Shown in pieces: positions 1 through 14,947 of a DNA stretch of 15,581 bases; position 1 is the first letter of the stretch; every line of letters begins with the position of its first letter. The position numbers were made by a program, and so were the translations under genes. The notes below the pieces were generated by a model. That model did no database searches. It had not been told where the DNA came from and worked only from the letters and a program-made list of their open reading frames with translations. Location: NCBI GenBank assembly GCA_025457845.1, contig JALOTO010000016.1, forward strand, positions 1 to 15,581, written 5' to 3'. This DNA comes from Thermoplasmata archaeon. GTDB lineage: Archaea; Thermoplasmatota; Thermoplasmata; UBA10834.

Positions 1-515
1 GGGAGGAGGTTGAACCCGGCGAGTATGACGTTGTAGAGCGACATCAGCCCCAGGAGGATCGTGAGCCCGTCCATGGCGACGGACGGGTCCGTGGCCGCGT
101 CCACGAGGAGCATCCCTCCGAACGACGCGAGCCCGATGGCGAGGCTGGACATCGGCCCCGCTAGTGCCATCTTCAGCTCCTGGAGCGGCTTCTTTGGGAC
201 CTCCTCCATTGCGGCGATCCCGCCGAAGAGCATCAGCGTGATGCTCTTGATCCGCACTCCGAACCTCAGCGCCACGTACGAATGCGCCAGTTCGTGGACG
301 AGTATCGTCGCGAAGAACAGGACCGCAGCGGCCGTCCCCCATGCGTACTTGATCCACTCCGGGCCGCCGAGGTCGCCGAAGCCTATCCTCGCCCAGAGGA
401 TGGTGTCCGAGCCGACCGAGAACGCGTAGACGAAGAGGGGAAGGATGAGCAGGAACGAGAAGTGAAGATGTATCGGGATGCCTAGTATGCGGCCCATCTT
501 TATGGACGATTTCAT
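1..515 (-). CDS. Site-2 protease-like membrane metalloprotease (peptidase M50), C-terminus cut off by window edge
   Basis: This is a partial gene; the 171 codons present start at 515 and run off the left edge. Translation shows a hydrophobic helix at about residues 17-32, then a helix containing the zinc-binding HELAH motif (H74, E75, H78), then an AGPMSS segment near residue 120 typical of M50 proteases. It ends at NLLP, the beginning of the family's second metal-ligand region (NxxPxxPxDGGR), which lies outside the window. M50 proteases cleave substrates inside the membrane, often to release regulators; many archaeal members carry C-terminal CBS domains, which cannot be judged here. The ATG at 515 is preferred because a TATA-like box lies 27 nt upstream, as for a leaderless mRNA; ATG at 497 (MGRILGIP) is the alternative and resembles the usual family N-terminus. 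The gene is divergent from the giant surface protein. The substrate is unknown. Confidence 0.9.
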   Translation of the reverse strand, partial: MKSSIKMGRILGIPIHLHFSFLLILPLFVYAFSVGSDTILWARIGFGDLGGPEWIKYAWGTAAAVLFFATILVHELAHSYVALRFGVRIKSITLMLFGGIAAMEEVPKKPLQELKMALAGPMSSLAIGLASFGGMLLVDAATDPSVAMDGLTILLGLMSLYNVILAGFNLL

Positions 516-538
516 CGCTCATCATTGGGATTCATCCG

Positions 539-546
539 TATTTAAG
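539..546 (-). promoter_or_regulatory. TATA box for the M50 protease gene
   Basis: On the minus strand the sequence reads CTTAAATA. Its centre is about 27 nt before the ATG at 515, the archaeal TATA-to-start spacing expected for a leaderless transcript. The same core, CTTAAATA, recurs upstream of the 5S rRNA. Confidence 0.6.
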
Positions 547-598
547 GCTTGGACGGTCTGGTTCGGTATCCTGGCAAGGTATTTTTCCCGAAAGCATG

Positions 599-606
599 AT
601 ATAAAA
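599..606 (+). promoter_or_regulatory. TATA box for the giant surface protein gene
   Basis: ATATAAAA lies in a locally AT-rich stretch between the divergent genes. The predicted transcription start is near 626-630. That coincides with an out-of-frame ATG at 629 and lies about 10 nt before the in-frame TTG at 640. Confidence 0.55.
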
Positions 607-639
607 CCAAACCGCTGTCCTGCCTGGGATGGAAAAAGC

Positions 640-3600
640 TTGCGCGCTATTCTAGCGGTCACAATGGCCGTCCTATCGTTGGCATCGCTCGTCTCCCCAA
701 TGTTCTCCGGGGACGTCACGGCACAGCCTCTCGTCAGCTCCGTTGACACCCACGTCGAGGTGACGACCTCTCCTTCGACGAGATCGATCGGCTTCACGGA
801 CCCCGTGGACACCGAGGCGACCGTCACGGAATACCCGCAGATAGCCCGCGCGCTCATGCTCCCGGGAGGATCCACCGATTCGTGCCTGGGGGACATCAAC
901 GCCGACGGGATCGACGACCTCATGGTCGCCGTGTCCGAAGCCAAGGTCATATCCGTGTTCTACGGGGAGGCGGACGGCTCGTTCCTGAGCCAGCCTTCGC
1001 ACAACATCACGCTCACCAGAAACCCGATCGGCGTGGCAATCATTGACGCATTTGACACGGGCATATTCCAAATCCTGGTGCTAGAGTCGGCAGTAGATGG
1101 TCTAGATTCTCCGCATCTCCGACTCTTCAATTACACGACAGACATCAGCTATCTGCCCCTTGTCGATGTCACCGTATTCGCGAATGCCACGTCGTTTGTC
1201 ATCGGGAGTTTCACCGGAGACACTTTTCCAGACGTGGCACTAGCGTGTTCGGGCCCATCTCCCGAATCCGATGCAGGGATTGTCGACATTAGAAGGGGGC
1301 CCTCGTTCTCGACCAACATCCAGGTCGAGTGCGGCCTCGGCACAAACGACATCGCGATGGGCATGTTCGACGGCGATCCGCTCATAGACCTGGCGGTCGC
1401 GAACAGGTACGATTCGAACGTGCTGATATTCAGCCAGCCGTTCTCGATAGGGATGGACCCGACATGGGTCCTAAACGTCAGCGGGGGCGCAGAGAGCCTC
1501 GCGGTAGGGCTTCTCGACAACGACGCATACGAGGATGTCGTCGTCTCTTCGACATCCCCGTCCGCTCTTCACTTCTTCTACCAGTCGCTAGCCTACCTCC
1601 CCAACGTCACGAGCTACGTCAGGCCGCTTGACGTGGTCGTCAGCTCCATCGACGTCGGCGACCTCGACGGGGACGGCAAGGACGACCTGGTCCTGCTGTC
1701 CAGGTCGTCGTCCGTGGCAGAGGTGTTCCTCCAACGCTCCAGCTCGCCGGTGTGGGAGTACTCGCCCGACCATTCCTTCCCCACAGGCTCCGCGCCCAGG
1801 GACGTCCTCATCGGCGACTTGTCGGCCGGATCGGCGACATGCATCGCCGTCTCAAGCGCCCGCGAGGATTGGACGGGAGCAAGCATCGCAATCTACCCGT
1901 ACTCATCCAGCGGCGTCTCCAACAGCAACCACACGACCTGGACCACCGTCAACTACGAGGCGGATGCGATCTCGACAGGGGACCTTGATGGCGATGATGT
2001 CGAGGACCTCGTCCTGCTCTACCCGTCCCTGAACTCGTTCGGCTACCTGCTCTCGTATGACGGTCCGACCAACAGCGTGGGCCTGGGTTACACCCCGTCG
2101 CAGATGATCGTGGACGACATCGACGACGACGGGTTCAGCGATGTGGTCACTCTCCATGAGAATGGGGTCGAGGCATCCGTCCACTTCGGGGCGTCCTCCC
2201 TGCCAGGGACCATGCGCTCCTCTGAGATATCGTTCTCCAGCCCCGTCACCTCACTGGACCGCGGCGACCTGAACGACGACGGCCTCGTCGACCTCGTGGC
2301 TTCCACCCTGATCGGTACCGTCGAGGTGGCGTACAACGATGGCACCGACGATGCATACTCGTCCGTCACCACGGTGGTCAGCTCATCCTGGGGGCCTGTG
2401 CTTGCGGTCGTCGCAGGCGATTTCGACTCGAACGGTCTTGACGACATCGCCTACCAGTGGCCGACACGCAGCATCGAGATAATCCTCCAGGAGTCATCCG
2501 ATACCCCGATCTCGCTGCCTGCGGACCTCACACTCTCCGTTTCCGTGGGGAGCGAGTTCGACAGGCTCTGGAGCGCGGACGCCACGGGCGACGGGCTTGA
2601 CGATGTCCTCGCGATGAGGGACGGCGACCTGAGCCTGTATGTCTTCGACCAGACCGACTTCGAGACCGCCCCGCACCCCTCCTACTGGGTCACGTTCCCC
2701 GAGGAACCATCGTTCGTCGCTGTCTCAGACTTCACCGATGACTGGGCCGCGGACGTCTTGGCCATCTACCCGGGCGGCGACCTCGCGTTCCTCCACAGGC
2801 AGGACGCGGGAGCGATCCCGACCTCCCCGTCCATGGTATTCGTGACGGGAGGGGACCCGACATGTGCCGCGGTCGGGGATGCCACCGGCGACCACCGCGG
2901 GGACCTGATGGTCTGCGACTCCTCCTCTCACACGGTGTCCGCCTGGGAACAGGTCAACACGGCTCCGACAGCCCATGCTGGCGGCCCCTACACGACCGGC
3001 CAAGGGGACCTTCTCGAGTTCGACGGTTCATCCGACACCGGCTCCTCAGAGGTCCCGTACATGGAGTACATGTGGGACTTCGGAGACGGGACCTCGACGG
3101 ACTGGGAGAGGGACCCGAACCCCACGCACGCATACATGTCCCTGGGCGCCTTCGATGTCACCATGTGGGTCCGCGACCCCGCCGGGCTGGAGGACACGGA
3201 CTCGACGCAGGTCGATGTCGTGGACAGCTCCCCCCACCCTGACTTCTCGTGGTCCCCCCTGAACCCATCCGAGGGCCAGCTCGTCACGTTCACAAGCACG
3301 ACTACTTCGTACGACGCCGTCGTCAGGTACACCTGGTGGGTCGACGCCGAGGAGGTCTCGGACGGATTGTCCACCGAGGTCTCGTCCGAGTTCGACGACG
3401 GCATGCACTCCGTCACCCTCGAGGCCGAGGACGACGACGGGTCGGTGGCCAACACCACGCACACCTTCGCCGTCCAGTCCCTCCTCCCGGAGATAGTCCT
3501 CACCTGCCCCGAGGACGTGGACGAGGGGGACGAGGTGACCCTGTCGGTCGAGGTCGATGCGTGGCACGGAGGCCCGGTAGACAGCATCGAGACCTACGAG

Positions 3601-5685
3601 TGGGACCTGTCCTATTCTGGCGGGGAGTTCCTGCCGGACGAGGTCACGACCACCAACACCACGACCCATGCGTTCGGCGCATCGGGCGATTCCGAGGTCT
3701 ACACGGTCGCGGTCAGGGTCACCGACGATGACGGCGACTCGAACACGACCATGGTCAACTTACTGGTACGCGACATCGGGCCCACGGCCTCGTTCTCCCT
3801 CAGCCCGTCCGCCCCTGCAGAGGGCACACCGTTCTCGTTCGTGGATTCGACGTACACATACGACGGTGTGGTCTCCTGGCACTGGACGCTGGTCGCCGAG
3901 GGCGCGACGACCGAGTACGACCTGAACGCGACCGAGATGGCCGCGCTAGAGTTCGTCTTCGGCGACGGCGCGTGCTCCATGACCCTCAACGTGACCGAGG
4001 GCGACGCGGACTCGTCGGAGGTCCACATAGAATTCGATGTGGCCGAGGTCGAGCCACAGGTCTCCCTTTCCACGATCCCTGCTGTTTCATCGTTCTACGA
4101 ATTCCAGGAGGTCGCGTTCTCCGCGGAGATTGAGAGCTACGACGATGTGGTCTCGATCGAATGGGACTTCGACGCCCTGGGCGGGGAGTTCATAGCCGAC
4201 CTGACGGGCTCCTCGAACGAGTCGTCGCACACATACCTGTGGACGGGCGACTACACCGCCAAGGTCAGGGTGACCGACTCGGACGGGTCGGCAGCGGTCG
4301 TGCCAGTCTACGTCGAGGTGATGGACACGGTCCTCGAGGGGACTTTCCTCGACGACATCACCGCCTCTAGGAAGGACCCGCAGCAGACCGCCATGATCAC
4401 ATTCGACGCGACGGATCTCTGCGACCGCTACCCTGACATCTCGAGCATGTTCTGGGAGTTCGGGGACGGCGAGGACATGATGAGCCTCGGCGCGCCGCTC
4501 CCGACGGTCGAGCATCTCTACGACCCCGTCAGGGACTACACGGTCAACGTGAGCATATCGGACGACGACGGGAACTCGCTTGTTCTGAGCAGGGTCCTTA
4601 AGCTGGTCCAGCCCGTCATACAGCTGGCCACCCCGGACGCCGGCGCGGTCATCCGGTCCGGTACCCCCATCAGGCTCATCATAGGCGACGACACGACCCC
4701 GCTCGTGTCGGTGCAGTACTCGGTCGACGGCTCGTACTTCGCCGACTTCGAGACGCTCTACGAGATCGACACAACGGAGTGGGGCGAGGCGACGCACTAC
4801 GTCGACGTGCGCGCGCAGGACAGGGACGGGAACATAGCCTATCTGCGGGACCTGGAGTTCACTACTGACGATTCCGCGCCCGTCGTCGTCTTCGAGCAGA
4901 CGGAGGATTCCGCGTACGGCGGGGACACGCTGACCGTCTACGTGACGATAGACGACGCGAACGTGGACCCGTCCAGCGTCCATCTCAACGTGACCTTCCC
5001 GGGATCGGCCGAGACCTCGTTCCAGATGGTCTCCGCCGGCAGCGGGATGTTCAGCGCCGTGATCGAGGTCCCGCTCCGCTCCGGCGAGATGACCTACTAC
5101 GTATGGGCGTCGGACCTGGCCGGGAACAGCCAGGTCAGCGAGACCCAGTCCGTCACCATCGACCTCAGGTTCATCGACGTCGCCCTGCCGTACCTACTTG
5201 CAGCCGCGGTCGCGGCCGCCGTCCTCCTGGCGATATACCTGGTCAGGGAGGGCACCATAGCGGTCGACGAGGTGTTCGTCATCTACAACGACGGGAGGAT
5301 GCTCGCCCACAGCACCCGGAGGCTCAAGCCCGGGATGGACGACCAGGTCCTGAGCGGGATGCTGGTGGCCGTGCAGGACTTCGTCAAGGACTCCTTCAAG
5401 GACGAGACGTCGTTCACCCTCAGGAAGATGGACTTCGGCGAGCGGGCGGTCCTCATCGAGAAGGGCCAGCACATCATCCTCGCAGTCGTCCTCCACGCGA
5501 GGGCCTCGAGGAAGGTCGCGACGAGGATGAAGATCGTCGTGGACGACATCGAGGACGTCTTCTGGGAGCACCTCCTGGACTGGGACGGCGACCTCGACAA
5601 GGTCCGAGGGGTGAACCTGATGGTCAAGAGGCTCTACTCCAAGGCCCCGATGATGCCCTTCGAACACTTCTTCAGGGAGAAGTGA
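640..5685 (+). CDS. Giant exported surface protein: FG-GAP repeats, PKD domains, C-terminal membrane helix and cytoplasmic domain
   Basis: About 1681 residues from the TTG at 640. Residues 1-29 look like a signal peptide: an Arg, a hydrophobic core, then SGDVTAQ. Residues ~80-765 hold 14 FG-GAP/VCBS-type repeats, several with calcium-loop signatures such as GDLDGDGKDDL; 14 would suit two seven-bladed propellers (inference). Residues ~774-1325 hold about six PKD domains (WDFGDG at 812-817 in the first, WEFGDG in the last). Two Ig-like domains follow (~1325-1505), then one membrane helix (~1511-1535). The last ~145 residues are a charged, soluble alpha/beta domain predicted to be cytoplasmic; its strand/helix order (bb-a-bbb-a) resembles longin/Roadblock folds, but I do not recognise a named family. 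The likely role is adhesion or surface sensing. The start is uncertain: TTG 640 gives a good signal peptide and fits the TATA box; ATG 664 is an alternative; the longest open frame (478) would overlap the divergent protease gene. Confidence 0.85.
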   Translation: MRAILAVTMAVLSLASLVSPMFSGDVTAQPLVSSVDTHVEVTTSPSTRSIGFTDPVDTEATVTEYPQIARALMLPGGSTDSCLGDINADGIDDLMVAVSEAKVISVFYGEADGSFLSQPSHNITLTRNPIGVAIIDAFDTGIFQILVLESAVDGLDSPHLRLFNYTTDISYLPLVDVTVFANATSFVIGSFTGDTFPDVALACSGPSPESDAGIVDIRRGPSFSTNIQVECGLGTNDIAMGMFDGDPLIDLAVANRYDSNVLIFSQPFSIGMDPTWVLNVSGGAESLAVGLLDNDAYEDVVVSSTSPSALHFFYQSLAYLPNVTSYVRPLDVVVSSIDVGDLDGDGKDDLVLLSRSSSVAEVFLQRSSSPVWEYSPDHSFPTGSAPRDVLIGDLSAGSATCIAVSSAREDWTGASIAIYPYSSSGVSNSNHTTWTTVNYEADAISTGDLDGDDVEDLVLLYPSLNSFGYLLSYDGPTNSVGLGYTPSQMIVDDIDDDGFSDVVTLHENGVEASVHFGASSLPGTMRSSEISFSSPVTSLDRGDLNDDGLVDLVASTLIGTVEVAYNDGTDDAYSSVTTVVSSSWGPVLAVVAGDFDSNGLDDIAYQWPTRSIEIILQESSDTPISLPADLTLSVSVGSEFDRLWSADATGDGLDDVLAMRDGDLSLYVFDQTDFETAPHPSYWVTFPEEPSFVAVSDFTDDWAADVLAIYPGGDLAFLHRQDAGAIPTSPSMVFVTGGDPTCAAVGDATGDHRGDLMVCDSSSHTVSAWEQVNTAPTAHAGGPYTTGQGDLLEFDGSSDTGSSEVPYMEYMWDFGDGTSTDWERDPNPTHAYMSLGAFDVTMWVRDPAGLEDTDSTQVDVVDSSPHPDFSWSPLNPSEGQLVTFTSTTTSYDAVVRYTWWVDAEEVSDGLSTEVSSEFDDGMHSVTLEAEDDDGSVANTTHTFAVQSLLPEIVLTCPEDVDEGDEVTLSVEVDAWHGGPVDSIETYEWDLSYSGGEFLPDEVTTTNTTTHAFGASGDSEVYTVAVRVTDDDGDSNTTMVNLLVRDIGPTASFSLSPSAPAEGTPFSFVDSTYTYDGVVSWHWTLVAEGATTEYDLNATEMAALEFVFGDGACSMTLNVTEGDADSSEVHIEFDVAEVEPQVSLSTIPAVSSFYEFQEVAFSAEIESYDDVVSIEWDFDALGGEFIADLTGSSNESSHTYLWTGDYTAKVRVTDSDGSAAVVPVYVEVMDTVLEGTFLDDITASRKDPQQTAMITFDATDLCDRYPDISSMFWEFGDGEDMMSLGAPLPTVEHLYDPVRDYTVNVSISDDDGNSLVLSRVLKLVQPVIQLATPDAGAVIRSGTPIRLIIGDDTTPLVSVQYSVDGSYFADFETLYEIDTTEWGEATHYVDVRAQDRDGNIAYLRDLEFTTDDSAPVVVFEQTEDSAYGGDTLTVYVTIDDANVDPSSVHLNVTFPGSAETSFQMVSAGSGMFSAVIEVPLRSGEMTYYVWASDLAGNSQVSETQSVTIDLRFIDVALPYLLAAAVAAAVLLAIYLVREGTIAVDEVFVIYNDGRMLAHSTRRLKPGMDDQVLSGMLVAVQDFVKDSFKDETSFTLRKMDFGERAVLIEKGQHIILAVVLHARASRKVATRMKIVVDDIEDVFWEHLLDWDGDLDKVRGVNLMVKRLYSKAPMMPFEHFFREK

Positions 5686-8077: not shown

Positions 8078-8085
8078 CTTAAATA
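8078..8085 (+). promoter_or_regulatory. TATA box of the 5S rRNA gene
   Basis: CTTAAATA preceded by purine-rich GGCAAGG. Its centre is about 28 nt before 8110, where the proposed helix I of the 5S rRNA begins, so it fixes the 5' end. No 16S, 23S or tRNA gene lies upstream in this window, so the 5S gene appears to be transcribed alone. Confidence 0.65.
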
Positions 8086-8109
8086 GGACATCGTTATTGG
8101 TGCAGGACA

Positions 8110-8338
8110 GAGCGGTATGACGGCCACAGTGGCGGGGTCACACCTGGTCTCTTTCCGAACCCAGAAGTTAAGCCCGCCTACGTTCTCCGCGGTACTGAGG
8201 TGCGCGAGCCCTCGGGAAGCCTAACGCCCTTGTGGCGTCTCGACCGCATCGGCTAGGTGCACTAGCCAGGTACCTTCGGGTACAGGGTGAACTGCACTGC
8301 TTGAAACCGATGCGGTTGTGGGAAGCCGTCAGCCACTC
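8110..8338 (+). rRNA. rrf: 5S ribosomal RNA, apparently with an expansion of about 100 nt in the helix IV region
   Basis: Core identity comes from CCGAACCCAGAAGTTAAGC (8155-8173) with helix II GGCGGG/CCCGCC (8131-8136/8173-8178), helix III CTGG/CCAG (8144-8147/8161-8164), and the loop E arm GGTACTGAGG...CCTCGGGAAG (8191-8219). The best helix I is TGACGGC (8118-8124) with GCCGTCA (8325-8331), 7 perfect pairs, extended outward by GG/CC and GAG/CTC to 8110/8338. UUCUC (8183-8187) with GGGAA (8320-8324) forms the base of helix IV and directly abuts helix I, the normal 5S arrangement. Between the loop E arm and that strand lies about 100 extra nt. The alternative is a shorter 5S ending near 8248 (GCGGT/ACCGC plus GACG/CGTC), which gives a broken helix I and a poor helix IV. 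Identity as 5S is near certain; the 3' end is moderately supported. Confidence 0.85.
8222..8319 (+). other. Proposed 5S rRNA expansion segment: small hairpin plus long branched arm
   Basis: Directly visible structure: hairpin ACGCC-CTTGT-GGCGT (8224-8238); a 12-bp stem CGACCGCATCGG (8241-8252) with CCGATGCGGTTG (8307-8318), complete apart from one G-U pair; and inside it CTAG/CTAG (8253-8256/8262-8265) and GTACC-TTCG-GGTAC (8270-8283), a UUCG tetraloop closed by C-G. With helix IV and the loop E arm this makes a four-way junction. If the 5S rRNA in fact ends near 8248, this would instead be a structured trailer or a separate RNA whose stem competes with helix I for 8243-8247. Confidence 0.6.
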
Positions 8339-8351
8339 TACTTTTCATTCC
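8337..8351 (+). terminator. Pyrimidine/T-rich terminator after the 5S rRNA
   Basis: The sequence after helix I is T/C-rich with a TTTT run (8342-8345). Archaeal RNA polymerase stops at T-tracts, so this is the first plausible stop after the 5S gene, and its position favours the long 5S model. The 60 nt that follow up to the next TATA box show no other feature. Confidence 0.45.
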
Positions 8352-11009: not shown

Positions 11010-11052
11010 GTCCATAACGACGTTTTGTCACGTGGGTGTCGCTGGGGTGCGA

Positions 11053-11325
11053 ATGGCAGAAGAGAGCACCATCTACATCGGAAAGAAGGAGACGATGAAC
11101 TACGTCCTTGCCGTCGTCTCGCAGCTGAACGGAGGTTGCTCCGACATCTGCATAAAGGCTCGCGGCAGGGCTATAAGCAGAGCCGTGGACGTCGCAGAGA
11201 TCGTCAAGAACAGGTTCGTCAAGGACCTGGGCTACACCGACATCAAGCTGGCCACCGAGACGCTGTCCAGCGAGAACGGGGAGACGGCGAACGTGTCCTC
11301 CATCGAGATATACCTCTCGAGATAG
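11053..11325 (+). CDS. albA: Alba, archaeal DNA/RNA-binding chromatin protein
   Basis: 90 residues, the normal Alba size. The N-terminal signature TIYIGKKETMNYV (6-18) contains the Lys pair K11-K12, equivalent to the nucleic-acid-contacting K16-K17 of Sulfolobus Alba. The middle part (IKARGRAISRAVDVAEIV, ~36-53) is the conserved second strand and helix 2, and the C-terminal strand ends at IEIYLSR. Alba dimers coat DNA and RNA and shape the chromosome. The start is ATG 11053, because MAEESTIYIG matches Alba N-termini and GGGGTG precedes it. A GTG at 11032 falls at the predicted transcription start and could give a form longer by seven residues. The gene has its own TATA box and is divergent from larE. 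Highly expressed proteins of this kind fit a strong promoter. Confidence 0.95.
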   Translation: MAEESTIYIGKKETMNYVLAVVSQLNGGCSDICIKARGRAISRAVDVAEIVKNRFVKDLGYTDIKLATETLSSENGETANVSSIEIYLSR

Positions 11326-11392
11326 GGCCGCCGGGTGTCTCCGACGCGATCCCCAGACGAGCGCGGGCAGCTGTGGGCCTAGCCTGCTAGGG

Positions 11393-11400
11393 TTTTATAC
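11393..11400 (+). promoter_or_regulatory. TATA box for the ipk-fni-idsA operon
   Basis: TTTTATAC in a GGGTTTTATACG context predicts transcription from about 11422, just upstream of the GGTGA ribosome site at 11425-11429. Confidence 0.6.
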
Positions 11401-11424
11401 GCCCCAGAACAATCGGCGACCAAC

Positions 11425-11429
11425 GGTGA
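11425..11429 (+). promoter_or_regulatory. Ribosome binding site that locates the ipk start
   Basis: GGTGA is complementary to the conserved archaeal 16S 3' end. It lies 7 nt before ATA 11437 and 10 nt before CTG 11440, the only codons that could begin the protein at the position expected for the family. The overlapping GTG at 11426 is in another frame and soon reaches a stop. Confidence 0.55.
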
Positions 11430-11436
11430 GCACACG

Positions 11437-12210
11437 ATACTGGTCAAGCTCGGCGGGAGCATAATCACGGACAAGTCGCGCCTGCGCACGTTCAGGAGGT
11501 CCGCGTGTCTCCGCCTCGCCAGGGAGATGTCGCCAGCGAAGGCCAGCCTCTGCGTCGTGCACGGCGCCGGCTCGTTCGGCCACATCATGGCGAAGAAGCA
11601 CTCGCTCCACAAGGGGTACAGCCGTCCTGCCCAGAGGAAGGCTGTCGCCTCGGTCCAGAGGGACGTGCGGGAACTGGACCTCAGGGTCATCGAGTGCCTG
11701 ATCGACGGTGGGATCAACGGCGCCGCAGTGCCGCCCGCGGCAGCCGCGGCCTTCGACAAGGGGACGGTCACGGAGTTCGACAAGGCCCCGTTCGAGCGCC
11801 TCCTCGGGATAGGGCTCACGCCCGTGACCTTCGGGGACGTCGTCCCCGACGCGTCCATGGGTTTCTCCATCTGCTCGGGCGACCTCATGATGGCCGAGCT
11901 CGCCGAGGCCTTCAGGCCCGAGCGCGTCGTCTTCTGCGCCGACGTCGACGGCGTCTTCGACAGGGACCCGAAGCGCGACCCGGGAGCGCGGCTCATACCC
12001 GAGCTCGACCGTTCGTCGCTCGCCGAGATACGCCGGTCGTCGGCGGTGAACGCAGATGTCACGGGGAGCATCTTCGGAAAGCTCGAGCGCATGCTGGCCA
12101 TAGCCGAGAACTGCGAAAAGTGTATGATAGTGAACGGCAATGTGCCAGGACGTCTGGCGAAGGCGGTCAAGGGCAGGGATGTCGTCTCGACGACAGTCCT
12201 GCCGGGATAG
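11437..12210 (+). CDS. ipk: Isopentenyl phosphate kinase, apparently with a non-canonical start codon
   Basis: 257 residues from ATA 11437. An amino-acid-kinase fold enzyme that phosphorylates isopentenyl phosphate to IPP, the last step of archaeal modified mevalonate routes. Visible motifs: KLGGS (4-8) and ITDKS (10-14) for nucleotide phosphates, GAGSFGH (43-49) with H49 matching the catalytic/substrate His50 of the Thermoplasma acidophilum enzyme, SGDLMMAELAE for substrate and ATP binding, and DVDGVFDRDPKR typical of IPK. Between the in-frame stop at 11380 and CTG 11440 there is no ATG, GTG or TTG. Starting at ATA gives M-LVKLGGS, exactly the length of Thermoplasma IPK (MILKIGGS), and GGTGA is well placed. 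The first in-frame ATG, 11527, would remove the GGS loop and is unlikely. A sequencing error (ATG read as ATA) is possible. The gene is first in ipk-fni-idsA, 8 nt before fni. Confidence 0.9.
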   Translation: MLVKLGGSIITDKSRLRTFRRSACLRLAREMSPAKASLCVVHGAGSFGHIMAKKHSLHKGYSRPAQRKAVASVQRDVRELDLRVIECLIDGGINGAAVPPAAAAAFDKGTVTEFDKAPFERLLGIGLTPVTFGDVVPDASMGFSICSGDLMMAELAEAFRPERVVFCADVDGVFDRDPKRDPGARLIPELDRSSLAEIRRSSAVNADVTGSIFGKLERMLAIAENCEKCMIVNGNVPGRLAKAVKGRDVVSTTVLPG

Positions 12211-12218
12211 GTGTGCGG

Positions 12219-13295
12219 ATGGAACGCGGTGAGGAACGGCTTATCGAGAAGAGGAAGTACGACCACGTCGTCATCTGCGCGAACGAGGAGCTCGGCTCCG
12301 GATACGAGTTCTGGGATGATGTCAAGCTGGTCCACGACGCCCTCCCCGAGGTCGACATGGACGACATCGACACGTCCGTCACCCTCTTCGGCAGGAGGCT
12401 CGAGGCGCCCATAATAATCTCTGCGATGACGGGCGGCTACGGCAAGGCCGCCGAGATCAACGGCAACCTCGCGGCAGTGGCAGAGGAGTTCGGGATCGGG
12501 ATGGGCGTGGGCAGCCAGAGGGCCGCCCTCGAGAACCCGGACCTGGCCGAGACGTATTCCGTCATCAAGGAGTTCGACATCCCTCTCAGGATCGGCAACC
12601 TCGGCGCCCCTCAGCTCGTCAGGCAGGGCATGAGCCCGACGCTCGAGCCCGAGGACGGCAGGATGGCGATGGAGATGGTCGATGCCCATGTCCTCGCGAT
12701 ACACCTCAACTACCTGCAGGAGGTCGTGCAGCCCGAGGGGGACACGAAGGCCGCGGGCGCCGTCAAGGCGATCGAGAGGTTCGCCTCCGCCATGCCAGTC
12801 ATGGCGAAGGAGACCGGCGCGGGCATCTCGAGGGATGTCGCGCTGAGGCTGAAGAAGGCCAAGGTCAAGGGGATAGACGTCGGCGGGCTCGGAGGGACGA
12901 GCTTCTCGGCGGTCGAGTACTTCCGCGCCAAGACCGCGGGCGACGCGGTCCGGGCGAACATCGGGAGGACGTTCTGGGACTGGGGCATACCGACCCCGGT
13001 GTCCGTCGTCGAGGCCAGCATCGGCCTGCCAGTCGTGGCGACGGGTGGCCTCAGGAGCGGACTCGATGTCGCGCGCGCGATAGCGATAGGCGCGAGCGCG
13101 GGCGGGATGGCGGGCCGGCTCCTTCCGGCGGCCCTCGAGGGCAGGGAGGCCCTGGGAATCGAGATCAAGACGATCATCGACGAGCTTAAGGCCGCGATGT
13201 TCCTTGTCGGCGCGCTGACGCTCGACGACCTCGCGGGGACCAAGGCCCTGGTGGTCGGAAGGTCGAGGGACTGGCTGGACCATCTCATGGAGTGA
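12219..13295 (+). CDS. fni: Type 2 isopentenyl-diphosphate isomerase (FMN-dependent)
   Basis: 358 residues, normal for the family. It isomerises IPP and DMAPP using reduced FMN and Mg. Motifs seen: KRKYDH (11-16), SAMTGGYG (68-75) at the flavin site, GVGSQRA (96-102), the catalytic/metal segment H162, N164, Q167, E168 followed by PEGD (172-175), KETGAGIS (197-204), GGLGGTSF (222-229) and ATGGLRSG near residue 275 for FMN phosphate. The spacing of H162, Q167 and E168 equals that of H155, Q160 and E161 in the Sulfolobus enzyme. ATG 12219 is preferred over GTG 12213 because AGGTG (12209-12213) is then a well-spaced ribosome site. It is the middle gene of the isoprenoid operon: 8 nt after ipk and 6 nt before idsA. 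Confidence 0.96.
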   Translation: MERGEERLIEKRKYDHVVICANEELGSGYEFWDDVKLVHDALPEVDMDDIDTSVTLFGRRLEAPIIISAMTGGYGKAAEINGNLAAVAEEFGIGMGVGSQRAALENPDLAETYSVIKEFDIPLRIGNLGAPQLVRQGMSPTLEPEDGRMAMEMVDAHVLAIHLNYLQEVVQPEGDTKAAGAVKAIERFASAMPVMAKETGAGISRDVALRLKKAKVKGIDVGGLGGTSFSAVEYFRAKTAGDAVRANIGRTFWDWGIPTPVSVVEASIGLPVVATGGLRSGLDVARAIAIGASAGGMAGRLLPAALEGREALGIEIKTIIDELKAAMFLVGALTLDDLAGTKALVVGRSRDWLDHLME

Positions 13296-13301
13296 TCTCA
13301 A

Positions 13302-14285
13302 ATGGCATTCCCGGAGGACTACAAGGACCGCGTCAAGAGGATCAACGCCGACCTGATGGCCTCCCTGGACGTGATGGAGGACAAGGACCTCAAGGCGGCC
13401 ATGGCGCACTACCCGGCTGCGGGGGGCAAGAGACTGAGGCCCCTGCTCGCGACCATGGCATGCGAGGCGGTGGGCGGCAAGTGGGAGACGGCCCTGCCTT
13501 TCGGCGTCGCCCTCGAGATGGTCCACAACTTCACGCTCGTCCACGACGACGTCATGGACGAGGATGACATGCGGCGCGGGATCAGGACCGTGCACTCCCA
13601 GTGGGGAGTGCCCGAGGCGATCCTGGCGGGCGATGCGATGTTCGCGCGGGCGTTCGAGCTGGTCCTGGAGTCCGACGTCGACGGCGACAGGGCGGTCAAG
13701 CTCGTGGACGTCCTCGCTAGGGCCGTTCGGCTCCTCGCCGAGGGACAGCAGATGGACATGTCCTTCGAGAGGAGGAAGACCGTCGCGGCCGACGAGTACC
13801 TCAAGATGATAGAAAGGAAGACCGCCGTGCTCTACTCGGCCGCGGCCCAGGGAGGCGCGATAGTCGGCGGCGCGCCCGAGTCGGTCCAGGAGGAGCTGTT
13901 CGAGTACGGCAGGCTGATAGGCCTCGGCTTCCAGATATGGGACGACGTCCTCGACCTACGGTCAGACCAGAAGACCTTCGGGAAGCCTGTCCTGAACGAC
14001 ATCAGGAACGGCAAGAAGACCATCATCGTGGTCGATGCGCTCTCGAAGCTGGAGGGCGCGCAGAGGACGGAGTTCCTCGCAGTGCTCGGGAAGAAGGACG
14101 CCACCGAGAAGGAGCTGCTCCGCGCGAAGGACCTGCTGGAGGCGGTCGGGTCCATAGAGCACGCGGACCGCGTGGCCAACGAGCACATCGCCATGGCGAA
14201 GGGCCATCTCTCGGCGGTCAAGGACGGCCCGCACAAGGACGCCCTGAAGGCGTTCGCGGACCTGATGGTCGGCCGGAAGACCTAG
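13302..14285 (+). CDS. idsA: Geranylgeranyl diphosphate synthase (trans-polyprenyl synthase)
   Basis: 327 residues. A class I prenyltransferase that condenses IPP with allylic diphosphates to make the C20 precursor of archaeal lipids. GGKRLRP (41-47) binds IPP. The first Asp-rich motif is DDVMD (82-86) with RRG after it, and the second is DDVLD (214-218). Position -5 from the first motif is Phe77, followed by Thr78, the same residues that set C20 chain length in Sulfolobus acidocaldarius GGPP synthase, so C20 rather than a longer product is expected. K229 and K232-region residues (FGKPVLNDIRNGKKT) complete the second diphosphate site. GGAGTGA at the end of fni serves as ribosome site for ATG 13302. 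Its TAG stop overlaps the radB stop inside CCTAGG. Confidence 0.95.
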   Translation: MAFPEDYKDRVKRINADLMASLDVMEDKDLKAAMAHYPAAGGKRLRPLLATMACEAVGGKWETALPFGVALEMVHNFTLVHDDVMDEDDMRRGIRTVHSQWGVPEAILAGDAMFARAFELVLESDVDGDRAVKLVDVLARAVRLLAEGQQMDMSFERRKTVAADEYLKMIERKTAVLYSAAAQGGAIVGGAPESVQEELFEYGRLIGLGFQIWDDVLDLRSDQKTFGKPVLNDIRNGKKTIIVVDALSKLEGAQRTEFLAVLGKKDATEKELLRAKDLLEAVGSIEHADRVANEHIAMAKGHLSAVKDGPHKDALKAFADLMVGRKT

Positions 14286-14947
14286 GTCACGCCGCCCCTT
14301 GTCAGCCTGAAGTCCGCCCTCCGCCCCTCCTCGAGGTGACGGTGCTTGATTATTACCGCCCTGCGGGTGCTGGAGCCGACCTTGTCCAGGCGGACTATCG
14401 TCTTCGCGTTGTGGAGCAGGACGTGGCCGCCGAGCGGCTCGAAGGTGTGCTTCTCGATGTCGGTGTAGACCTGCGACGTCAGCAGGACCGGGATCCCCTT
14501 CCCCCTGGCCACCCCCAGGAGCTTCGCCAGCTGAGTGCTCAGCGACCTGCGCGTGCCCTTCTCCTCGTCGTTCCTCGTGAGCCTGTAGTGGATGGTGGCC
14601 GAGTCGAGGATTATGACGCCGACCTCGAGGGAGCTCTCGGCCAACTTGACAGCCTTCTCCACGAACTTCTCCTGGTCGTCGAAGTTGTGCGGTTCGAAGA
14701 AGAGGACGTTCCGCATGACCTCCTCGTACCTCTCCCCTGCGATCTGCATGAGCCTCTCGAGCGAGACGCCCTCGGTGTCGATGTAGATGACCTTCTTCCC
14801 GGCTAGGGCGACGTTGCGGGCGACCTGGAGGCAGACGTTGGTCTTGCCGGTGCCCGCCTCGCCGAAGAGCAGGGTGATGGCCCCGCCCTCGAGACCCCCC
14901 TCTAGGAGTTCGTCCAGTGAGGGAGAGCCCGTCGCGAGATGGGACAC
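14282..14947 (-). CDS. radB: RadB, archaeal RecA/RadA paralogue
   Basis: 221 residues, the typical RadB size: a RecA core without the N-terminal helix-hairpin-helix domain of RadA. It opens with TGSPSLDELLEGGLEGG, then Walker A GEAGTGKT (29-36), a YIDTEG strand (55-60) and Walker B VIILD (111-115). Sensor-type residues follow in LLTSQVY (near 160-166), and the C-terminus is basic. RadB is thought to assist RadA in homologous recombination and binds DNA and ATP, with weak ATPase activity. The start is GTG at 14947. A weak TATA-like CTTATCA lies 27 nt upstream, matching a leaderless message. It is convergent with idsA and divergent from the beta-helix protein gene. KaiC-like ATPases are the main alternative but are usually longer or have different C-termini. 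Confidence 0.93.
   Translation of the reverse strand: MSHLATGSPSLDELLEGGLEGGAITLLFGEAGTGKTNVCLQVARNVALAGKKVIYIDTEGVSLERLMQIAGERYEEVMRNVLFFEPHNFDDQEKFVEKAVKLAESSLEVGVIILDSATIHYRLTRNDEEKGTRRSLSTQLAKLLGVARGKGIPVLLTSQVYTDIEKHTFEPLGGHVLLHNAKTIVRLDKVGSSTRRAVIIKHRHLEEGRRADFRLTRGGVT

Follow-up and report, generated by a model that had tools for sequence, protein, structure and literature searches.

The window, by which we mean the whole 15,581-nucleotide stretch of Thermoplasmata DNA analyzed here (contig JALOTO010000016.1), hosts a 5S rRNA gene at positions 8110-8338, and the 3' strand of its helix I lies approximately 97 nt farther downstream than usual. The Rfam 5S model (RF00001) aligns with 8116-8235 at 73.6 bits (cut-off 38), in keeping with the first-pass annotation of this DNA, which had read the locus as an expanded 5S rRNA; the alignment ends on a poor helix I. 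This is the sole Rfam match of weight in the window, and a search with ARAGORN found no tRNA genes there. The features of the locus are collected in Table 1.

The longest reading frame of the window (478-5685, forward strand) encodes a protein of 1735 aa with FG-GAP-like repeats and PKD domains. Downstream of the 5S gene, an Alba gene is followed by genes for an AA_kinase-family protein, an FNI-like protein and a polyprenyl synthetase (11032-14285, forward strand), which can be read as an isoprenoid pathway. A Rad51-family protein, perhaps RadB, lies on the reverse strand (14282-14947).

Table 1. Features of the 5S rRNA locus in window coordinates
Feature	Position	Strand	Evidence
TATA-box-like CTTAAATAG	8078..8086	+	Sequence; AT-rich peak in 82 expanded genes; putative promoter role
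Helix I, 5' strand with outward extension	8110..8124	+	Pairs with 8325-8338; own-partner preference in 62 of 64
5S core: loop A, helices II and III	8125..8181	+	RF00001 match; conserved in the alignment
Outer helix V, 5' strand	8182..8186	+	Comparative register with 8320-8324; absent from the 18-sequence consensus fold
Inner helix V, loop E and helix IV of the core	8189..8220	+	8189-8220 and 8190-8219 paired in the consensus fold
Expansion segment in the 3' strand of helix V	8221..8319 (borders +/- 2-3 nt)	+	Present in 82 expanded, absent from 79 normal sequences
Arm A, 5-bp hairpin	8224..8238	+	Double-sided changes at all 5 pairs, 18 sequences
Arm B, long arm	8241..8318	+	Covariation in 18 and in 61 distinct sequences; models R1 and R2
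Arm B, middle helix 8256-8261/8293-8298	8256..8298	+	97.5% of cells paired, 61 distinct sequences
Arm B, conserved internal loops	8253-8255/8299-8306 and 8262-8265/8288-8292	+	Loop conservation
Arm B, terminal hairpin with UUCG loop 8275-8278	8266..8287	+	Covariation in 18 and in 61 sequences
Outer helix V, 3' strand	8320..8324	+	Comparison of 82 expanded sequences
Helix I, 3' strand; proposed true 5S 3' end	8325..8338	+	Fold, consensus, comparison
T-tract, possible terminator	8342..8345 (TTTT)	+	Sequence; weak marker

Helix I and the borders of the gene

The block TGACGGC at 8118-8124 is the exact complement of GCCGTCA at 8325-8331, and the helix is lengthened outward by GG/CC (8114-8115/8333-8334) and GAG/CTC (8110-8112/8336-8338). 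All these pairings had been proposed in the first-pass annotation, and they hold: left unconstrained, the region 8108-8340 folds at -107.8 kcal/mol (z -4.24, with 0 of 200 shuffles equally low) and closes helix I with the distal strand. The same fold draws the 5-bp hairpin that had been read within the insert (8224-8228/8234-8238), together with 11 of the 12 pairs assigned to the stem of its long arm (8241-8252/8307-8318), and places helix V near the register first suggested. The region 8189-8220 is drawn otherwise in this single-sequence fold than in the consensus fold discussed below.

We measured closure from the first base of the 8-nt helix I strand to the end of its partner. By this one measure the window closes at 216, compared with mostly 119 in normal 5S genes, which gives a net gain of approximately 97 nt. 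The expansion of about 100 nt originally read at this locus stands, and the accompanying length of 229 nt is a figure that takes in the extended helix I. Across the loci compared, closure separates two sharp classes, one of 79 distinct sequences with closure at 118-120 nt and one of 82 with closure at 214-234 nt (214-232 nt for the 81 that remain when the doubtful L260 is set aside). The 82 expanded sequences include the window, L226, whose insert is unmatched by our models, and L260, whose closure is weak and which looks broken; eight unclassified loci (L093, L160, L192, L207, L209, L234, L253 and L331) were left out, as were sequences with N, duplicates and loci before L081. Both L260 (G236) and L253 (G034) have 5S-like starts followed by a 3' half that is neither clearly normal nor clearly expanded, and are possibly remnants or broken copies.

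A nearer 3' end was looked for as the observation that would speak against distal closure, and pairing favours the distal end throughout: it is a better partner for the 5' end than the standard-length end is in all 64 distinct stems. The outer part of helix I is also selective for its own partner: in 62 of 64 distinct cases that partner pairs better than those of other sequences do on average; the mean for own partners is -10.40 kcal/mol, and the lowest of 2000 permutation means is -7.79. Since the pairs beside the core (8119-8124/8325-8330) are nearly invariant and carry little covariation information, the comparative support for helix I comes from its outer pairs. The covariation anticipated across 8118-8124/8325-8331 is thus found in the outer stem and hardly at all next to the core.

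Both signals that had been said to bracket the gene, the TATA-like box and the TTTT tract, are present. The latter is a weak marker of the end, because TTTT occurs at most 40 nt downstream of 52 of 78 normal genes as well as of 48 of 82 expanded ones; it is also seen within the gene itself in 20 of 82 expanded cases and 1 of 79 normal ones. The AT-rich peak before the TGACGG block lies 34-38 nt upstream in expanded genes and 25-30 nt upstream in normal ones, as if the expanded 5S started approximately 10 nt earlier, with a longer helix I.

Arms of the insert and the helix V junction

The consensus fold of 18 sequences contains both arms and the distal helix I, with double-sided change in 26 of 64 pairs. 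Within these sequences arm B has double-sided change at 15 of its 25 pairs (9.0 in shuffles) and in 57 cells (15.3 in shuffles), and 89.1% of its cells are paired, compared with 26-44% when the partner is slid. We then considered 61 distinct sequences found with model R1, in an alignment fitted to that model: arm B has 350 compensatory cells compared with 123.0 in shuffles, a covariation score of 0.690 against 0.265, and 90.0% of cells paired against 31-53% with the partner slid. The long arm, including the stem 8241-8252/8307-8318 on which this check had been proposed, is therefore confirmed by covariation. The number of pairs with double-sided change among the 61 sequences (22 of 25) barely exceeds the shuffles (mean 19.7; reached in 7 of 500).

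The two internal loops of arm B are near-invariant, approximately 5'-YYAG facing 5'-NUNAA. Readings of these loops as a kink-turn, as loop E or as UAA/GAN did not fit when compared by eye with the consensus sequences of these motifs. Searches for a known Rfam element in the insert returned chance-level rows only, and the tRNA model RF00005 gave no row at E <= 10 in the inserts of the window and L263. A tRNA origin of arm B, suggested by the order of its hairpins and by a match of model R2 in genome G414, is unsupported given the absence of RF00005 from the inserts. The match in question is a tRNA-Pro gene (L285:107-181, reverse strand) that fits R2 end to end with 31.7 bits, probably by chance. 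In 18 genomes taken as normal, for most of which R2 scored only 150 first-look candidates, the model returned three chance-level rows (14.3-16.5 bits, E 2.5-3.5).

Outer helix V, directly beside helix I, had been placed at 8183-8187/8320-8324; its 3' strand and its position next to helix I stand, and the 82 expanded sequences favour 8182-8186 as the 5' strand. Of the 410 cells in its five outer pairs, 353 are paired, and pair 75 alone among the five changes on both sides (24 cells). The case for outer helix V is made by these five pairs, because over eight positions 67.2% of cells are paired, barely above the 63.1% of shuffles; the helix is missing from the 18-sequence consensus fold. Immediately before helix I, 68 of the 82 expanded sequences have a C that faces G; 13 of 82, like the window, have A at this place.

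In normal 5S genes, seven of the eight helix V pairs counted vary and the remaining one is always G-C or G.A-like; double-sided cells number 129, compared with 48.8 in shuffles. In the expanded genes, pairing with the former partner site survives at position 78 in 1 of 82 sequences and at position 79 in 30 of 82. Position 80 has G-C or G-U at this site in 57 of 82, without double-sided change, and in the 18-sequence consensus G80 pairs with the base preceding the insert (17 G-C, 1 U-A). This pattern is what a four-way junction would give, and nothing in it points to splicing of the insert. The arms of the junction are outer helix V; inner helix V with loop E and helix IV; arm A; and arm B.

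Distribution and history of the expanded gene

The FNI-like protein of the window is 71-76% identical to proteins from Thermoplasmata or Euryarchaeota metagenome assemblies (L001-L009). The loci among them that reach the 5S gene (L002 and L004-L008) have an expanded 5S upstream of the FNI-like gene, the arrangement seen in the window; the 5S of L002 reads N in its 5' part. The order of G008, which is the genome of L008, is represented by 21 genomes. A single RF00001 match is present in each of 16 of these; the 15 genes that are readable to the end are all expanded, the sixteenth being cut by a contig end. L081-L084, the 5S genes in the genomes of L010, L011, L016 and L019, are normal, and the normal form is common in the class of the window (for example, L103-L131).

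Of 400 genomes sampled from this class, 57 have arm B by model R1. Because ten low-scoring 5S genes without an R1 match in the class scan turned out to be expanded, we built model R2, which detected arm B in 70 of the 400 class genomes (G062 and G114 counted without reading their 5S) and in 28 of 389 phylum genomes, with at least six genomes common to the two lists. The remaining 330 of the 400 class genomes have no R2 match. Scan counts are lower bounds, because the R1 genome scan missed genes that R1 matches directly (L207, L213, L214, L217, L223, L247, L248, L254, L255 and L257); the insert of L226 (G036) is missed by both models. A type found in the phylum (G018, G501 and others; L263, L266-L282) has the same loop motifs and, as it is not met among the 70 class matches, probably lies outside the class of the window. 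The 5S match of L263 begins 45 nt past the end of the 23S match, so the insert occurs in both stand-alone and operon-linked 5S genes.

Genomes G497, G485 and G501, each one contig of about the size of the genome, have a single 5S match, which is expanded; G165 (a contig of 1,990,926 bases) has two, both expanded. Since these four have only expanded genes, the expanded form should be the working 5S in genomes with no other 5S match, and from such genomes we infer that it is incorporated in the large subunit. Arm B is also present in G577, where the 5S core reads N. Among the loci read, the insert lies in 5S, with the exceptions of the tRNA match in G414 and of a truncated second copy in G452. 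In the latter genome (L264, L265), arm B occurs twice together with the 5S 3' end, and approximately 2.5 kb of a single contig separate the copies; one copy lacks the 5' part of the 5S and may be a partial duplicate or an assembly effect.

The trait was followed on a tree built from the EF-2 of 31 genomes, 16 of them expanded and 15 normal, after a motif filter had removed 6 of 37 rows (G047, G037, G036, G109, G016 and G098). Among the normal genomes, G080 and G162 were classed by RF00001 score alone (99.0 and 95.8 bits) and G053 from its sequence by eye, its locus L192 being one that the script left unclassified; none of the three has an R2 match. The expanded trait undergoes five changes on this tree, and holding the expanded rows as one clade is rejected (AU p 0.0018). 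As judged from the aligned sequences, the insert is shown to be a single conserved domain, homologous across many Thermoplasmatota genomes. Since this domain is shared and yet the expanded rows are not one clade, either an early gain in Thermoplasmatota with several losses or transfer between lineages is needed, and the deep branches are too weakly supported to choose. In two of the removed rows, L320 (G047) and L321 (G037), the EF-2 frame measures 1049 and 1053 aa, respectively, and the match falls into two parts, perhaps because of inteins.

Interpretation and comparison with known expanded 5S rRNAs

The locus is very probably a functional 5S rRNA gene with a product of approximately 229 nt, in which a net segment of some 97 nt in the 3' strand of helix V creates a four-way junction. 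Closure classes and covariation support the reading from which this work started: this is the 5S rRNA of a Thermoplasmata-like archaeon, expanded and with its junction at helix V. At the level of sequence comparison, the distal closure of helix I and the fold of both arms are shown. The insert would stay in the mature 5S, and its arms may project from the central protuberance, by analogy with the Halococcus insert. A function for the internal loops is guesswork: their conservation would be consistent with the docking of a protein or of 23S rRNA, and such docking could stabilise or tune the assembly of the 5S RNP or the central protuberance. The 5S rRNA is a small component of the ribosome and as a rule highly uniform; that approximately 100 extra, strongly conserved nucleotides recur in it in many relatives points to an ancient addition to the ribosome and not to a local peculiarity.

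The insert might instead be removed, either as an archaeal intron by a tRNA-type endonuclease or as an intervening sequence that leaves the 5S in fragments. Archaeal rRNA introns and bacterial rRNA intervening sequences exist, but inspection of the consensus folds by eye revealed no bulge-helix-bulge motif spanning the borders, and excision would not restore an ordinary helix V, given how seldom positions 78 and 79 find their former partners (1 and 30 of 82) and that this pairing is free of the covariation seen in the 79 normal sequences. The conserved letters of the arm loops also speak against a removed insert, and we regard removal as very unlikely. It is scarcely credible that the true 5S ends near 8235, where the Rfam alignment stops, and that the remainder is a separate small RNA or spacer. 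The score of that alignment is good, but the helix I that it closes is poor, the distal end is the better partner in every distinct stem, and the same mis-annotation is described for haloarchaeal expanded 5S in PMC7812874.

A tolerated insertion without function, which PMC7812874 allows for some expansions, would agree with the many genomes of the same class that have no expansion (for example, L103-L131; 330 of 400 have no R2 match). Drift, however, should erode the loops, whereas we find one homologous fold with near-invariant loop letters and strong compensatory change, confined in the loci read to 5S apart from the G452 and G414 cases; we consider this explanation unlikely. On the preferred reading, a functional expanded 5S, many genomes of one archaeal phylum have kept a single expansion whose pairs show compensatory change and whose loop letters are near-fixed, and several of these genomes have no other 5S match. 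If it is true, the role of 5S expansions becomes a testable question, the 5S 3' ends placed by standard models are wrong in these genomes, and an extra arm is predicted on the large subunit.

Cryo-EM of the Halococcus insert reveals a four-way junction with the core undisturbed (PMC7530397), and the 108-nt haloarchaeal insert leaves the ribosome at the central protuberance (PMC7530397 and PMC7812874). According to PMC7812874, the archaeal cases listed are in Halobacteria only, with the 3' end mis-annotated at the standard-model position; prokaryotic 5S expansions are rare, patchy, found within taxa of subfamily rank and of unclear adaptive value; and more are allowed for in poorly annotated genomes elsewhere. 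The published inserts fold on themselves, measure 13-109 nt and leave the core intact (PMC7812874). Here, too, a self-folding insert leaves the core intact, and the net inserts of the 81 clear relatives (95-113 nt) in some cases slightly exceed the range given in that text.

The haloarchaeal (Halococcus) type described in PMC7812874 and PMC7530397, for which the former cites NZ_AOMC01000054.1, 66311-66541, is similarly an archaeal 5S with an insert in the 3' strand of helix V and a four-way junction, is the only 5S type of its genomes and has a mis-annotated 3' end. The form described here differs from it, in a comparison by site and description, in its net insert (approximately 97 nt in the window), its different phylum, its wider distribution and its two conserved internal loops. 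Bacterial expanded 5S rRNAs (Thermoanaerobacterales, Clostridiales, Halanaerobiales, Pseudoalteromonas), which make up the remaining structural types of PMC7812874, share the self-folding insert in a 5S core but have other insertion sites, are scattered and sometimes stand beside normal copies (PMC7812874). Ordinary archaeal 5S (RF00001) has the same core, loops and helices I-V, but closes at 118-120 nt without an insert. Compared with the haloarchaeal 104.1/105 type, the insert probably lies about one position further in and keeps five outer pairs, the junction G being assignable to either side; this offset depends on our own mapping of the published numbering through E. coli numbering.

In the search for a sequence of the haloarchaeal type, two plasmid 5S genes were read and are both normal, and viral contigs gave 0 matches. 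Searches of open-licence PMC full text brought up no account of an expanded 5S in Thermoplasmata. That the Thermoplasmatota and haloarchaeal expansions are one homologous domain, ancient or repeatedly transferred across two phyla and serving as a conserved docking platform on the central protuberance, is conceivable but doubtful. The expanded 5S rRNA of Thermoplasmatota is filed here as a new structural family, of a kind already known and wider in distribution than the types described in PMC7812874.
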